Shown in pieces: positions 23,651 to 33,080 of a stretch of 64,000 nt of DNA. The number at the start of each line of letters is the position of its first letter. Positions within the stretch are counted from its first letter, which is position 1. Made by a program: the position numbers and the translations under genes. The notes beneath the pieces are model-generated. The model saw only the letters and a list, made by a program, of their open reading frames with translations. It ran no database searches and was not told the origin of the DNA. This stretch comes from Buxus sempervirens (Eukaryota > Streptophyta > Magnoliopsida > Buxales > Buxaceae): NCBI GenBank assembly GCA_947561395.2, contig OX387193.1:5890001-5954000 (forward strand). The letters are read 5' to 3'.

Positions 23651-24003
23651 GGATGGCCTAATAAAAATGCTAGAATCCAACAAGAAAACTACAGCAAGAA
23701 AACGAGGAAGGGAATTTGAGTAGTCTCTGAACGGCGACCATGCAATACGTAATTGTCTCGTCATTTCCAACGAAGTTTCGTGTCCTAAGTTTGCTCTCGC
23801 TTTTGTGTTTATCTGTCAATAGAAAACATTAACACTACAAAAGAAAATATAGAGGATGCTTAATTGCAGTGCGTCACTCCAAACCAGCTATGAAGAGAAT
23901 TGGCTTTTAGCGGTGGAAATAACCTCGAAATTGACCACGAACCTTTTGTTCCCCTTTCTTTTATTATTATTTTGTCGGGCACGTATTGTCTGGAGCTACT
24001 TGG

Positions 24004-24790
24004 CACTACAAAAAATTAATTTTTTGGCGACACAAATTTTGCGGCGAACATAAATATTTGTCACTGTATATATCATATGACGACATAATTTGACGTTTAC
24101 CACTAAAAAATAAATATTTGTGGCATTTTTTTTATGTTTGTCGTTAATGGAAAAAACATTTGCGACGTAATTTAATGTTTGCCGTTAAAAAAGAAACCAT
24201 TTGTGGCATTTTTTTATGTTTGTCGTTAATGTAAAAAGCATTTGTGACATTACTTAATTTTCGTCGTTAATTTAAAAATTATTTGCAGCGGTATCTAATA
24301 TTCGCCGCTAATTAAGAAAGCATTTGCGGCATTCCTTAATGTTTGTCGTTAATGTAAAAATTATTTGCGGCATTATTTAATATTCGCTGCTAATTAAGAA
24401 AGTATTTGCGGCATTCTTTAATGTTCGTCGTTACTTTAAAAGAATTGGCGGCATTCTTTAATGTTTGCCATTAATAAAAAAAACATTCGCAGCATTATTT
24501 AATGTCCGCTGTTAATTAAAGAGCATTTGTGACATCCCTTATTATTTGCCACTAATGTAAAAAATATTCGTGACATTCCTTAATGTTTATCGTTAATTAA
24601 AAAGGCATTTGCAGCATTTTTTAATGTTCGCCGTTAATTGTAAAAACATTTGCATCATTCTTTAATGTTTGCCGTTAATTTCAAAATCATTTGTGGCACT
24701 CCTTGAGGTTCATCATTAATTAAAAAGGCATTTGTAGTGCTCATTTAAGGTTCGCCACTATATCATACCACTAATACATGGCGATGGAAA
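24004..24790. repeat. left subterminal repeats of the CACTA element
   Basis: About 20 diverged copies of a unit near 37 bases containing CATTTGCGGCATT, TTTAATGTTTGTCGTTAAT and an A-run. Subterminal repeats of this kind are where the En/Spm DNA-binding protein docks. Confidence 0.85.
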
Positions 24791-25184
24791 AGGTTCAATT
24801 AGAACAAATTAAGAATTAAATTAACCTAGCCAAAAAAAACTTTTTAGGTAGGTTTTTGTTTTATTATCGTTCCAGTTTTGTTTCGGTTTTATACTATAAA
24901 ATCCTATTCGGTTTTGGTTCTCTCTCAATTAGGAGATCAAACTAAATTGAACTAAACAATCCTTAATTATATATGTACCAGCAGGGTGCACGTGTAGTAC
25001 TACTGCACGTCGTGGGATCGAGGTAATATGGTACTTGCATAACTGACAATTTAATTAGTTTCCAAAAAATTGAGGAATTTTTTTTTACCATTACACCCTT
25101 TTATTTTAATGTATCTTCACGATGGTGTTTATGGGCTGTTATGGAAAGTTTTGCACTTTAATTGGATGGCGTAAATCCCAAAAG

Positions 25185-25415
25185 GGCACCTTCACCCGGG
25201 AGGTGCCATGGCTCCCTGGGTGCCCCTAGTTGCCCCAAGCTGCCTCGGGCCGCAAGGGGAATATGCCCCACCCGGGGGGTGCCATATATGGCACCTCGGG
25301 TGCCCCCAGTTGCCCCATGCAGCCCCGAGCTGCATGGGGCATATGCCCCACTTGGGGGGTGCCCCCAGTTGCCCCAAGCGGCCCCGGGCTGCATGGGGCA
25401 TATATATGGCCACTT
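25185..25415. repeat. GC-rich palindromic minisatellite
   Basis: Imperfect repeats built from GGGGGGTGCCCCCAGTTGCC and TGCATGGGGCATAT. One perfect hairpin has arms TGCCCCATGCAG (25311-25322) and CTGCATGGGGCA (25330-25341) with a 7-base loop. Every frame is open over it, so several spurious frames arise. It stands out sharply from the AT-rich surroundings. Confidence 0.8.
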
Positions 25416-26990
25416 GGTTATATATAGTATAGGTATTTATATGTATATACACACATGCATGTTTAAGTCAAACCAATAAACTAGCTAGGAATTCGATTTA
25501 TCAAGTTTTAAACCAATAATCTAAACCAATTAAGAAGAATGTATATCAATTACAAAATATATATGTATTAGCTAGCTATTTATGTATCAAAGTATTATAA
25601 TTAAATTTTATGATATAGAATATATGAAATATACATAGAATATAATTATTATAGCTATTTATATTATTTTTTCGGTTTGTTGCTCGATTGAGGTGGGCTT
25701 GGTTCTTAATTTGGATTGGTTCAGTTTTGGTGGTCATAGAGACCTAGCTAGGTTTGGTCATGGGTTGAGGTAAACTTGAGCCAAACCAAACCAAGTTTCA
25801 CCCCCTTGTTAAAATTAGAGAAACCAAACTTTTAGATTTTTATTAATGGTTTTGATTTTATATTAAGAAACCCAATTAAATCAGTTTTGCTTTTGGTTTC
25901 CGTTAATAGACATGCATATATTAATGTCACATTTGGGTTTAATTGTGGTTTTATTAAAAACCCAACCGGACCATTGCAATATATACTTTGAATCGATCCT
26001 CTCTTTCCCGCCGAACAAAACAAATCAAGATTAAACAAGATAGAGATCGTCCTCCATCTTTCTCGCGGCAATATAGCGAGGGAGAAGAAACGTGGGGCTT
26101 CCGTCACTCTCTCACGCCCTGCTCAGTTCATTCCCTCTCTCGATTCAACGAAAGTGGAGAAGACATATGTAGGCCTTGCGCTGTATCACTTCACTCTCGT
26201 TTGATATTTCGCTCTCCGGCTTGCCCTGTCGAAAAGCCAAGACTCTCAAAAGCCACCGTAAAAAAATCTGGTATGTATCTGATTTTTTTCCCATGTATTT
26301 GCTAAACCTCCTCTGTTTTCTTCTTTTCTACGATGAATGGGAGGTTGCCATAAACCGATAGGAAAAGAATTTATATTGAAAAGGTCTTTTTGTTCCCCTT
26401 TAATTTCAATGTGGATCGACTCCACTTCTTTCATTGTTTTCTTGTCTCAGTTAATTATTTACTCCATTTACGTTTACATCTTACATTATCCGTGATAACT
26501 TCCATAATATCTTTGATTTTACTTTCAATGTGGATCGATTCCATCAAAGGAGTAAGGAATTAGGAGTAGAGAGTTAGCCTAATCGTGAACAGTAATTTCT
26601 CTGAAGGGTGAAGAAGTATGTTTTAGTTTGATTATGTTCTGATCTGGGGTTCTTGTTCAGTTCTGAATTTGATATTAATTCGGTTTTGAACTGGGTTCCT
26701 TTTTGCTAAATAGGAAAAGTGTAGGATGTGAATCGGTAGTTACAAGTAAATCTGGTGTGCTGATGTATATATATTATTAATAGAAACTTAAAAGAGTCAA
26801 TAGTTAAGCATAGGCAAAATAAGAATCCAACTCATGTTTTACTAGTCAAGAATGTAGAAGTTATTTTCTTGATGCATTAGATAAATTTCAAGAGAATTAC
26901 ATATAACATAAGCAGGTGAATAAAGAAAAGAACTTCCTTGAAAAACATCTGATCTCTACCAAATAAACTACACTGAATTAATCTTGTTAG

Positions 26991-27935
26991 GGATGGGTGC
27001 GTAACCAGTCCCGAAGACAAACACTATGGAAGGCTCTTCTGCAATTCATTCTATCACAAGTATAATCAGGACCACTTCCACTCTTAGCTCCAAGTTCCTC
27101 ATCTACATTAATGTCTCAGTCAAAAATAGATGAATGGTATAAAATTTTGATATCCTTAAACTATGAATTGTAGATCTTACCAATAGGAAGACACTGAGCA
27201 TAACAAATTCCACATTCAACTTGCTCTGCATCCTTCAGGACATTTGGAGGTGCAAGTAATGTCATCTCTAGTATACTCGCAAGATTTTCACATAGTGGTC
27301 TGTTCATCATCCTATGCAACTAACTTAACTACATTACTATTTATGTTTTAAACAAATATCAGCAAAGTCAGACACACTATAGGAAAATAAAAATTAGAAG
27401 AAAAAAAAGGGAAGGGAGGGAGGGGGCTTAGGTGGCAGCAGTGGAATGAATCTGCTACAATGAACATCTTAAACTGTTATAGCTAACCCCATTTTACATG
27501 CTGCAGAGTACTTATCTTGAAAAACAAGAAAATAGTAACACAAAAAGGCAAAAGATATTCAGGAACCATTAGTGAACTATCAAGAATAATAAAAAAGGAC
27601 CATAACTCAGAATAGGTCTTTTCAAAGAAGGGTAATGAGAGGGGTGGCCCAGCAACATATCTAATTGTTAAAATTTATTTGCAAAGCGGCCACAATTAGA
27701 CTCAAACCTGCGTTCTCATGCTAGCAGCCAAAGGCTACTATCACACAAAGTTGGTCCCCAAAGATTAAGAACTATTATATATGAAAAAACATGTGATCAC
27801 TATCATAACACCAGTTTACATAAAGGACTTGAATTATACCATCTTCTCCTATTTCTCCTCCATTTAGTCACCATATTGTTTAATATTGAATCTGGACCCA
27901 AGAAGCGACATCTGGCACAATTCAACACCCAGTTA
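26991..27935 (-). pseudogene. FANCL: captured FANCL gene fragment (central domain and part of RING)
   Basis: Three minus-strand exons inside the CACTA element. Exon a (27935 or further up, to 27840) encodes CRFLGPDS and KWRRNRRRW, from the region before the RING. Exon b (27311-27181) encodes RPLCENLASILEM and ECGICYAQCLPI. Exon c (27102 to about 26991) encodes DEELGAKSGSG, DYTC and AFHSVCLRDWLRTHP, then meets a stop. Introns have GT-AG ends, and codons rejoin correctly at both junctions (Trp and Asp). FANCL is the ubiquitin E3 of the Fanconi anaemia DNA-repair pathway. The N-terminal exons and the final Cys-x2-Cys zinc ligands of the RING are missing, so it cannot be a working ligase. The opposite strand to the transposase and the position inside the element indicate transduplication. 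Confidence 0.85.
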
Positions 27936-30057
27936 CTGAATGAACAATATAACCTATCAGTAGCAGCACATGTAACTTTTTCTGACTTACTCTGGTAAGG
28001 AGGTTGGACTATAGGCATTTATAGACAACTCAGAAAGCACCCATTTCCTGAGAACATGAGCCCCATCATCGAAATTAGGGATGAACCTGGCAAAAGCATT
28101 CTCTACTATTGGGCTTTTAAAAACCATGTTCATTTATGAACTTTCTTGGGTTAGTCAAAAGTGATTAAAATTTTGTAATTCTATAAAAGTGTTCTTAAGC
28201 CAGAGGGTACTTCTGCAAGAAAATTGTCAATGATAGAGATATGGATCTCCTTGTTGGAAGATGTCTCGAATAGTACAGGTCTATGGGGTGCATCCTACTA
28301 TTGCTCTTGGGTACTCCTTGGATAGGTTTGGGATGATTAGCTCTGGTTTTTCAGGTGTATTCTCTATATTCTGAAAGTTTGATCCTTGTTGGCTTCTATT
28401 TTGAACAATCTTCATAATTTTATAAAAGTTCTTTTAGTCTGTTATTTGCTGTATGGAGTTGATTATGGCTACTTTTCTTTTCCTATTTCCCTGTTTATAA
28501 TTCTTGCATTACAAAGAGTTACTGGATGAGGAATGTTCTAGATTTTGTTGTTCTCTAATCCAAAGAAGAAATTTATATGTTCACTTGTGAAAATTTCAAG
28601 CTAAAGGAGCTTATTCAAATATGTTAAATCTTTAATCAAATCTATAGAGATTCTATAATCTTATATCTATAGGAATGAGTATAGATCCCATTTTATGAAT
28701 GATTCTATTGTTTTGTGGGTGTTAAATATTTAGGGTCTAGTAAGTTTTCGGTTTGAGTTATTGAAGAGAAAAAATGGAGATCCCGTAAATGAATGGGTCG
28801 GTGAAAAAATTGTAAGTAATTACTTTGCTTTCCAAGTGTTTGTGTGCTTTTCTTAAGTTCTCTGAAATGTCATTTTATGTCTTGAAAAAACTATACGAGA
28901 CGAACAAATGTATTCTTGAGGAAGTATGCTAATCCTCTTTCAAATGTTAGTCATGATTATTAAAGGTTGTCTTCTGCAATGAAGTTACTCTTTTAATCTA
29001 TGTCACTGGATTCATACTTTAGCTTCACCTTAAAAAAATTGGATTTTTCTCTCTTTGACTAAGTCAAACCTTCGACTAATTTAAACCACTTGAAATAGTC
29101 CTGAAGAGTGAGTAACCAATTTTGAAAGGCATGACGATCTAATTTTATGAAGAATGCAAGAACTTTTAAAATTTTTAATGCACATTGATTTTAAAACTTC
29201 GTTGATTGGTCTCCATGATATTCATGTTAATCCATTTTATAAAATTGACATGCAATGTTCAACATTATACCTAATAGGTGATATATGCTGAGTTGTGTTA
29301 TTTCTTAGACCTCAATGTGTTGCACCTTGATTCTGGGTTTGCCTCGTGGTCGCTCTTGCATTACTTTAAGCAACTTCGTCACCATCTGGAGATTCTTTAT
29401 CTGGTCCAATTATTTTGTGCAACCAAGGCTTTTTTTAATATTTTCAGCTTCTTCTAGATATTTATCATCATACTTGTTGGCCCATATCTTGATCGTTTTT
29501 TAGTGACTAAATTAATCTGGTTGATCAATTCAAGTAAAAGTTTATCTTTCCATGATTGGAAGTCGGGCATTATAGGCTGGAATTTGGGCTTTCTCAAGGC
29601 AACACCTTGTGACCTTGTAGTGGAATGGCATCGATGATGCAATCTTTGAAATTTGAATAAGGTCTATGTTGGATGGAAAAGGTATCTTGAATGAAAATTC
29701 TTCATGACATTTCCTATAAAAAAAAATTTATGAAAACGTAGACATCTGGAACAATTGTAGTGCCCTTTGAAAATAAATTTTGGGGACAACTTTGCTATAT
29801 CATGGGGAAATTTAAAACCATGAATTTTCTTATCTATATTGATTAGCCTTTTTTGGCACTATCCAAGATATTCAACCTGTAATTTTTGGTGTTATTCTAT
29901 GAGAGCTCTAGCTTATTCTTTGTATTATAAAATATCATTTCTACAAGTGGTTGCTTGTTTCTTCTTTTATTTCCGTCTTCATGATTTATAATTTCTTAAC
30001 ATTAATGTTGCTTGTTTCCTTCTTTTATTTGTTTGCTAAATTTCTAATCTTTGATTT

Positions 30058-30483
30058 ATGGATATACATCAAATTGCTTTGCAGAGACAAGTGGAAGAAT
30101 TATTATCCCAACCAGAAATCGCATCACAAGATAATACTGGAAGAGATGATATTTATTCCCAAGTTATGGGAACTGATGAAAGGCGTGGACAAGTACGTGG
30201 ATATGGTTTGGGCCCAACACCAAGTACATTATGGGGATCTTCCACTTGAGCAGCTGTAACTTCAGATCCTATTTTACAAGATGAAGTTAGATCATTACGT
30301 GATGAACTTGCAGCCAAGGATACAGAAATAGCATCAGTGAAGGAATCTATGGCAATCAAGGACATAGAAATGATCACATTGAAGGAATCTATGGCAACCA
30401 AGGACGTAGAAATGACTTCATTAAAAGAAACTATGGCAATGCTTATGCAACGATTGGATCAAGTGGAGAAAAATGCGGTATGA
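30058..30483 (+). pseudogene. Ptta/En/Spm-type transposon protein, C-terminal part, with in-frame stop
   Basis: Reads QRQVEELLSQPE, then IYSQVMGTDERRGQVRGYGL and GPTPS, a pattern shared by the plant transposase (Ptta/En/Spm) family. A TGA at 30247-30249 interrupts it. The same frame then continues open into a coiled coil with three repeats of the type KESMAxKDxEM, ending MLMQRLDQVEKNA at a GT donor. The block at 30579-30622 (AAATTCCATGGAGG...) may be the last exon. The upstream start is not clear. En/Spm elements encode a DNA-binding protein that recognises the subterminal repeats; this one is probably dead. Confidence 0.65.
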
Positions 30484-30889
30484 TTAATGTTTATGTTAAA
30501 TTCTATTATATAGGTTATAAGAAATAATTGATATTTGTTGCCTTCCTAACAGTTTTTCATTTTCAATTTTCTTTATAGAAATTCCATGGAGGATTTGCTA
30601 ACAAGGGGAAACAGCGAACCTAGAGACTCTTTATTTTGCTGTAATTGACATTCATTTTGCTTATTAGGGAACAATTTATTGTTTATTTGTTCATATGACT
30701 ATAATTTTTTTTCTTTTCTTTATTGATTTTGTTTATATTACCTTTGATTTATAATAATTGATAAGCTTCTTTGCATTTGTCATATGTGTTAATTTGTGGT
30801 CATTTTTAGAGTTTTATCATATCTATTGGTTAATTAATTATTACAGGTGAAAAGGAAAAATCAGTCCAACAAAACAATTATTTGTTTAT

Positions 30890-31662
30890 AATTGGCTTTT
30901 TTGCGGCATTTTTAAATGTCGTTGTATATACATATATGTAGGCATTCAAAATGTGTGCCACCAATATAAACATATAATGGCATGCATTGAATTGTCGTTA
31001 AATTAAACATGTTTGAATGTGTGGCTAAATTAAAGAAATAGTGGCATTTGTATGTGTATCGCTAAAGTAAGCAAATAGCAGAATTTTTATTTGCGTCGCT
31101 CTATATTAACAAATAGTGGCAGACTTGGCGGCTATATGCGTGTCACTAAAAAACAAATAGCGTTGTTTCTATGTTTGTTGCTAAAATAAACAAATCGTGG
31201 CGTTTATATGTGTGTCGCTAAAATAAGCAAATAGTGGCATTTTTATTTATGTCGCTATATATTAACAAATAGCGGCAATTATATGTGTGTCACTAAAAAA
31301 ACAAATAGCGTCATTTCTATGTTTGTCGCTAAAATAAACAAATTGCGGCGTTTATATGTGTGTCATGAAAATAGACAAATAATGACGTTCATATGTGCGT
31401 CGCTAAAAAAGAGCAATAGCGACATTCATATGTGTGTCTCTGATTTAAATCTATAATGACAAACATAATGACACTCATAGCATGCTGCAAATTGTTTACT
31501 TTTGGCGGCTAATGCATAAAACGTCGCAAATTATTTGCGACGCGGCCTTCAGCGACAAAATTCAATTCGTCGCCATGTTCGCCGCCAAAGGTTATAGCGG
31601 CGTTTATTTTAGATTTAGCGGCATTTTTATGAACGCCGTGAAAAACCTAATTTTTTGTAGTG
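30890..31662. repeat. right subterminal repeats of the CACTA element
   Basis: Repeats of ATGTGTGTCGCTAAA, then ACAAATAGCGGCATTT, in the opposite sense to the left array and with a diverged consensus, ending in the inverted CACTA terminus. Confidence 0.85.
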
Positions 31663-32091
31663 TGGCGAGATGAAATCGCCTGCAAATTTAAGGTTGGAGA
31701 CGATGTCATAGATGTGCGACAAGCATATTCTTCCAGACTGGTTGCGAACATGCCCTGGACGTTTGGGTTCTTTGATTTTGAAGGAAAATCTCACTCATAT
31801 ATTTTGCTATCTTCTTCCTTCCTCTTCCCTTATCCCCAGTTTTTCTCAATGCTGGACCAGGTCGCCATTCTTTTGGAGACCACGATATGGCCGATCCAGC
31901 GACTAGTTTGTCTCAGCAAAAGCTCTCTGCAGCCTACTACTAGGTGGCGCATCAGCCATCAACCAATTGCCAGTAAGTTAAAAGCATCATTTGTTACATG
32001 TTGTTTTATTTGATTAGCGATCTCCCTCGGCATGTCTCATCTCATTCTGGAAGGAGACTCGAAGAGCATTATAACGATGCTGTCACTCATA
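31663..32091 (+). repeat. kiwellin upstream block plus RNase H-like fragment
   Basis: 31711-31860 is the paralogue of the block at 15795-15980 and continues the copy 8 upstream region beyond the CACTA element. From 32017 one frame reads AISLGMSHLILEGDSKSII, the pattern of RNase H-like domains in plant non-LTR elements. It ends where the next repeat begins. Only a scrap remains. Confidence 0.5.
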
Positions 32092-32766: not shown

Positions 32767-33080
32767 TGTTGGGCTAAAGTCTAGCATCTTGCTCTGGTAT
32801 AAGGAAATAAAGTTGCGCTCTAACTAATAACTTAAGTGGTAAGCGTTGGATCCTAACAAATAAAGTTGCGCTCTAACTAATAACTTAAGTGGTAAGCGTT
32901 GGATCCTAACAATTGGTGTCATAGAGCCCAGGTCTCGGGTTCAATTCCCCCCCTCGGCGGCCGGAGAACATGCTCTGCTGTTTGCAAAGGCATGCTACTG
33001 TGGTCAAGTGTTGACCTGCTGTTTGCCCTGGTTGGCAGGTTTTGACTTGTGGTCGCTGATGCCAGAGGGGGATTGTTGGG
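32767..33080 (+). mobile_element. TRIM-like retroelement remnant
   Basis: An LTR-like segment begins TGTTGGGCTAAAGTC and ends GGATCCTAACA (32767-32911). It is followed by ATTGGTGTCATAGAGCC, close to the usual plant primer-binding site. At 33066-33073 GAGGGGGAT precedes a second TGTTGGGAGCTAAAGTCC, the start of a cut-off 3' LTR. There is no coding sequence. Within the 5' LTR a 53-base segment (AAATAAAGTTGCGCTC...) is tandemly doubled at 32805-32910. Confidence 0.6.

Follow-up and report, generated by a model that had tools for sequence, protein, structure and literature searches.

In Chenopodium, CACTA elements have captured fragments of Neprosin and AP2 genes, which lie in the 5′ region of the element, ahead of the transposase ORF (PMC8978399). 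The grapevine element Cactavine-5 has transduplicated a PPR fragment that stands antisense to, and downstream of, the transposase ORF (PMC2528002). Tgm-Express1 of soybean, inserted in intron 2 of F3H, carries five host fragments that were shown to be spliced (PMC1947982), and the Pack-CACTA elements of Arabidopsis combine CACTA ends with host coding DNA (PMC8903248, PMC13317346). siRNAs from captured sequences act on donor genes in maize; the systems named in the part of that source consulted are Helitrons, Pack-MULEs and Sireviruses, not CACTA elements (PMC13317346). No paper joining CACTA elements with FANCL was found in the literature searched, nor, judged by titles and abstract openings, any on the capture of FANCL by a plant transposon.

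We analysed a stretch of 64,000 nt from Buxus sempervirens (contig OX387193.1; hereafter the window), in which a CACTA element carries a piece of FANCL. The comparisons that follow refer to the consulted parts of the reports above. As in Chenopodium, a host gene fragment lies 5′ of the transposase ORF; here, however, the gene is FANCL, the fragment is about 1 kb long and includes three whole introns, and a single genome suffices to trace its donor, its breakpoints and a sister element (PMC8978399). The captured part is opposite in orientation to the CACTA transposase, like that of Cactavine-5, but lies upstream rather than downstream of it (PMC2528002). Like the host fragments of Tgm-Express1, also a CACTA-type element, it retains exon–intron structure, although splicing is reported from transcripts in soybean and predicted from sequence here (PMC1947982). 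The window copy resembles Pack-CACTA elements in having host coding DNA and no tnp2, but keeps a weak Transposase_24 remnant; unlike in Pack-CACTA, the FANCL piece is also present in an element with tnp2 domains, on C14, and is therefore not confined to a non-autonomous form (PMC8903248, PMC13317346).

An internally deleted CACTA element with an antisense FANCL segment

The terminal inverted repeats (TIRs) of the window element are 22 nt long, begin with CACTA and are 91% complementary, and the element is flanked by a TGG target-site duplication (24001–24003 and 31663–31665). Relative to the C14 copy, it has lost 4,988 bp, including tnp2. Sister copies on C3 and C19 (33.13 Mb) likewise carry about 5.0 kb more at the position of the deletion junction, where tnp2 was shown on C14. 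No tnp2 domain was detected in the window copy at E ≤ 0.1 (Pfam, six frames), and the sole Pfam transposase trace in the six frames is the sub-cut-off Transposase_24 match, in a remnant with an in-frame TGA (30247–30249, by eye) followed by three 42-bp repeats (30310–30435). A sub-threshold NHase_alpha match (13.9 bits) was taken as chance. The 5′ part of the element also contains G+C-rich repeats of the form TGCCCC...GGGGCA (25208–25422), and the region at 26.0–26.3 kb, upstream of the FANCL piece, looks leader-like by eye. Around the element, frames for secreted proteins of one family, presumably kiwellin-like, lie in both orientations (232–34201), and an exact 53-bp tandem duplication lies outside it at 32805–32910.

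Table 1. Features of the CACTA element and its captured sequences (window coordinates)
Feature	Position	Strand	Basis
CACTA (En/Spm) element, 7,659 bp, internally deleted copy	24004–31662	+	TIRs, subterminal repeats, C14 relative
5′ terminal inverted repeat, CACTACAAAAAATTAATTTTTT	24004–24025	+	repeat analysis
5′ subterminal repeat array, 41-bp unit	24112–24756	.	
X-right, segment of locus C3:51.717 Mb	26786–26983	-	genome DNA search
Junction sequence FANCL/X-right, 15 nt, perhaps partly FANCL-derived	26984–26998	-	donor alignment
Captured FANCL genomic segment, exons and introns	26999–28073	-	alignment with C4 donor
Exon D, DEELGAKSG..DWLR, truncated at capture breakpoint	27102–26999	-	profile search and donor alignment
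Exon C, ends ..VECGICYAQCLPI, carries first two RING cysteines	27311–27181	-	profile search and donor alignment
Exon B, CRFLGPDS..KWRRNRRRW	27911–27840	-	profile search and donor alignment
Exon A, FANCL_d3 part, ends ..LSINAYSPTSLPE	28047–27991	-	1-nt deletion relative to donor
X-left, other part of locus C3:51.717 Mb	28068–28139	-	genome DNA search
Y, 373 bp	28140–28512	.	matched solely in four FANCL-carrying elements
Deletion junction, 4-bp microhomology AAGA	28764–28767	.	comparison with C14
Transposase_24 remnant (profile match 30088–30222)	30088–30435	+	16.4 bits, Pfam cut-off 28.7
3′ subterminal repeat array, 37-bp unit	31018–31438	.	
3′ terminal inverted repeat	31641–31662	-	repeat analysis

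The original prediction had placed three minus-strand FANCL exons at 26991–27935, inside a CACTA transposon that had captured them. We confirm the identity of the gene: the spliced peptide of exons B–D scored 53.6 bits against Pfam FANCL_C (cut-off 27.3) and 24.0 bits against FANCL_d3 (cut-off 23.7; the N-terminal part of the peptide by itself gives 26.2), and its top PDB match was FANCL (chain 7kzp_L, E 2.9e-12). Given these scores and this best match, the peptide is neither a chance similarity nor part of another RING family. The capture by a CACTA element is likewise confirmed, by the TIRs, the TGG duplication, the subterminal arrays and the occurrence of the piece in four elements. All three predicted peptides are present, as are the GT–AG introns, the rejoined codons and a TAA after the last recognisable residue; the span is indeed FANCL, but its first predicted exon begins at 27911, with intron at 27935–27912, and a fourth exon (exon A, 28047–27991) had been missed. 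Exon A was found by frameshift-aware comparison with the FANCL letters of two PDB chains (score 32, where shuffled sequences averaged 18.6 and 1 of 200 did as well). It joins exon B with the codon split as GA and A, giving LPE-CRFLGPD, and raises the FANCL_d3 score from 26.2 to 36.4 bits. We had earlier taken the sequence directly upstream of CRFLGPD for frameshifted FANCL; exon A replaces that candidate. A frame in X-left/exon A had no Pfam or PDB match.

The captured segment extends from the end of the intron preceding exon A to ..DWLR. Its last FANCL-aligned letters are TTACGC (26999), the BLAST match runs on to 26984, and the frame of exon D continues past the end of FANCL, through RTHP, to the TAA at 26989–26987. 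A full RING has eight zinc ligands, of which the captured peptide would keep six. The complete set is not present, as the last Cys pair is encoded by a donor exon outside the capture; the prediction of a partial RING lacking its final Cys pair was thus correct. Since the FANCL alignment ends at 26999 and the Cys-pair exon lies further on in the donor, the pair is missing because of the capture breakpoint. The sequence after DWLR (TRQSF..LFG) had been a candidate for decayed FANCL: Pfam gave 55.1 bits with either frame, and the phmmer alignment appeared to extend into it. In the frameshift-aware comparison with FANCL, however, 96 of 200 shuffles did as well, so the similarity lacks significance; the stretch belongs instead to a second locus, X.

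The donor gene on C4 and the mosaic around the capture

Genome searches covered the assembly of 676.5 Mb in 247 contigs; match counts are lower bounds for repeats. A DNA search with positions 28000–26900 gave 21 matches. They fall in the window, on C14, at C3:11.47 Mb, at C4:10.6 Mb and at C19:33.13 Mb (two pieces), with a match to the flank only at C3:51.717 Mb; the remaining 14 are short, 69–76% identical, and all in a repeat of intron B. This repeat (window 27762–27564) is SINE-like by eye and predates the capture, because the donor intron has it too. A protein search gave 15 matches, three per locus in five main loci. All 15 had seemed to be CACTA copies, with parental FANCL absent from the genome, a reading that we rejected since the C4 locus is a fuller gene. 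Of seven FANCL_C profile matches in the genome at E ≤ 0.1, five exceed the cut-off, two of them in the C4 gene and the other three singly in the C3, C14 and window copies. The weak matches at C3:61064183–61064311 and C3:61469632–61469760 (23.7 and 24.2 bits, below the cut-off) are probably other RING proteins. Plant FANCL relatives were also sought in viral_contigs and genome_contigs, where 9 and 54 pattern matches included no relative by tblastn; a scan with a whole frame of the element found nothing.

The fuller FANCL gene lies at C4:10.595–10.6005 Mb. When the window element with 200-bp flanks was compared with a 9.9-kb stretch of this locus (L026), the sole match at E ≤ 1e-10 was 26984–28073, with 96.2% identity to C4:10598.9–10599.99k. 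Eight in-phase exons run from IDKMGRMHILEM to ..SFDVLFGSCPYCSEPVAIKVSTND and the stop codon, bounded by GT donors and AG acceptors and free of internal stops; a further exon, IEEIGWEHLVRLGKDLSFLSFRV, lies about 3 kb upstream, and the downstream terminal CPYC exon, absent from the captured piece, is retained. The first coding exon was not found within the C4 stretches. Profile scans of these stretches, of the six-frame type, detected FANCL_C and FANCL_d3; the one other match was unrelated and sub-threshold. Between donor exons, a direct repeat of about 170 bp occurs in two near-identical copies (L026:5090–5570) that look LTR-like by eye. Because C4 has further exons, it is very unlikely that this locus was copied from the element.

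The species' own FANCL gene, to which the original prediction would have the captured piece aligned, is thus the donor on C4, and the window piece is not the only FANCL locus. This bears on the reading of the window piece as a host FANCL gene, decayed or the only one, that was invaded by CACTA sequences. Such a gene would account for the similarity to FANCL at the protein level, but not for four copies that share breakpoints and sit in elements of one kind. The fuller gene on C4 refutes this reading, and we consider its chances negligible.

The FANCL piece is embedded in sequence from an unrelated locus (X, at C3:51.717 Mb), with 72 bp to its left and about 200 bp to its right, both 94% identical to that locus. 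There the two parts are 96 bp apart, and in the element FANCL stands in place of those 96 bp. A genome search with X gave nine matches: one is X itself, and the others fall in the four elements with FANCL, two in each; a search with the adjoining segment Y gave four, one per element. The left breakpoint of the FANCL piece is alike in all four copies, and the right one in the window, C14 and C3 copies, having been removed by a deletion in the C19 copy. The X–FANCL–X pattern fits break repair with template switching, which we infer as the mechanism.

Sister elements and decay of the captured exons

At least three further CACTA copies carry the same FANCL piece, on C14, on C3 (11.47 Mb) and at C19:33.13 Mb. 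The C14 copy is complete from TIR to TIR (12,664 bp), with TIRs that begin with CACTA and an ATG target-site duplication. Its extra stretch matches Transposase_21 (340 bits), DUF4218, DUF4216 and Transpos_assoc, and Transposase_24 below the cut-off (22.6 bits); since its open frames are split by stops or introns, we claim no transposase activity. On this element FANCL is on the minus strand, upstream of tnp2 on the plus strand, so that the predicted antisense orientation holds. The C3 copy has the 5′ TIR and an altered 3′ part, in which the 3′ end was not found; the C19 copy was examined without its 3′ end, which lies beyond the stretch compared. Its exon C is interrupted by an insertion of about 3.4 kb (C19:33126.2–33129.6k), which has G+C-rich ends and AGGTGCAG on both sides (an 8-bp duplication).

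A query with the tnp2 region of C14 (40 scored of 409 candidates) identified four members with 96–100% identity: C14 itself, C19:33.13 Mb, C3:11.47 Mb and an element on C10. The next relative is 83% identical and others 71–83%. Genome DNA searches with FANCL, X and Y gave no match in the C10 element, which is interrupted and partly deleted and was compared over part of its length; it may have lost the FANCL piece rather than never having had it. At the 5′ site that FANCL occupies elsewhere, it contains 369 bp of unrelated sequence that includes a long poly-C run (C10:9068.4–9068.8k); this may indicate a site that often takes up foreign DNA.

The captured exons are no better conserved than the introns. 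Intron K2P distances are 0.024–0.033 between copies and donor and 0.007–0.019 among copies; the corresponding exon values are 0.019–0.030 and 0.017–0.028. Private changes in the four copies, polarised by majority rule, comprise 12 nonsynonymous, 4 synonymous and 14 intronic changes, that is, 16 exonic changes in 366 bp against 14 intronic ones in 723 bp. The nonsynonymous share, 12 of 16 in a small sample, shows no deficit against the neutral expectation of 76%; decay is at neutral proportions. The donor alone differs at 14 intronic, 3 synonymous and 1 nonsynonymous sites, by changes that arose either on its own branch or on that of the capture. Another four sites carry a change shared by two sequences; C3 has the donor's base at three of these, which suggests that C3 branched first.

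Three of the four copies have a stop or frameshift relative to the donor: a 1-nt deletion in exon A of the window copy, absent from the other three; a Trp-to-stop change in exon B on C14; and, on C19, 4 nt inserted in exon A and 41 nt lost where exon D ends, in addition to the insertion in exon C. On C3, the donor frame is still open. The frame had been described as clean and ascribed to recent capture or selection. It is open as read, but with the deletion in exon A; the intron distances bear out a fairly recent capture, whereas 12 nonsynonymous to 4 synonymous changes speak against selection. We conclude that, within the power of 30 changes, the clean look of the frame reflects youth, not selection. 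Weak or copy-specific selection may remain, since these are only 30 private changes in four related copies. A rate of 7e-9 per site per year would place the capture roughly 2 million years ago, or several times further back with slow woody-plant rates.

The same changes weigh on the idea that the window copy is a new chimeric gene, whose partial-RING protein could act dominant-negatively. An ATG in X-left (28133–28131) opens a predicted spliced frame of 153 aa through all four FANCL exons with GT–AG sites, and captured fragments are spliced as exons in Tgm-Express1 (PMC1947982). However, this frame hangs on the deletion that the other three copies lack, and in C14 and C3, the two copies compared, the frame from the X-left ATG ends after 41 aa. 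All four private exonic substitutions of the window copy are nonsynonymous, two of them beside its deletion and alignment-dependent; six of eight zinc ligands are left, and the promoter is putative. We regard a chimeric gene as very improbable.

Origin of the fragment and possible effects on the host

We are confident that the piece is a transduplicated gene fragment: a CACTA ancestor copied host FANCL and multiplied, and the piece is now drifting. Transduplication as such is ordinary, a process already known. In this scenario, an ancestral tnp2-bearing element would have copied from the host gene a FANCL piece of about 1.08 kb, at the DNA level, since introns are included, together with two pieces of the unrelated locus X. 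These pieces would have entered the 5′ part of the element, ahead of tnp2 and antisense to it, probably by break repair with template switching. The element would then have transposed to give the at least four present copies, of which the window copy lost about 5.0 kb, including tnp2, at a later stage. The fragment appears to have drifted since capture without detectable constraint, and most likely for that reason does nothing for the plant.

An effect on the host might still arise if antisense FANCL in the transposase transcription unit gave rise to small RNAs that dampen or methylate donor FANCL, or shield the element from silencing. The arrangement would suit this, as FANCL is antisense to tnp2, upstream of it, and downstream of the region that looks leader-like by eye. 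Of 286 donor-exon 21-mers, 187 are perfectly present in the window copy, 174 in C14, 177 in C3 and 146 in C19:33.13 Mb, but any recent capture would show such identity, and a related element on C10 has no FANCL. Sequence identity and orientation are all that speaks for an effect of the piece, through small RNAs or a dominant-negative protein. In the consulted parts of the sources, donor-silencing siRNAs are described for maize captures other than CACTA (PMC13317346), and regulatory potential is proposed for the antisense PPR fragment of the grapevine CACTA element (PMC2528002). We consider a small-RNA effect unlikely. That transposon transcription would, through such small RNAs, throttle the host's interstrand-crosslink repair is a more specific proposal to which we give little credence; if true, it would tie the dose of a DNA-repair gene to transposon activity.

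No effect on the plant thus remains the most likely outcome for the transduplicated fragment, and its significance lies in what it records. One genome holds the donor, both breakpoints and a second donor on both flanks; it also holds a carrier that has transposase domains, a derivative reduced by deletion and a relative of these elements that lacks the FANCL piece. This is an unusually complete capture record, and it lends support to repair by template switching within the 5′ part of CACTA elements. It also cautions against taking an open frame and good splice sites as a sign of function when the capture is young. Small RNAs from the fragment, if ever shown, would provide a testable link from a transposon to a repair gene.
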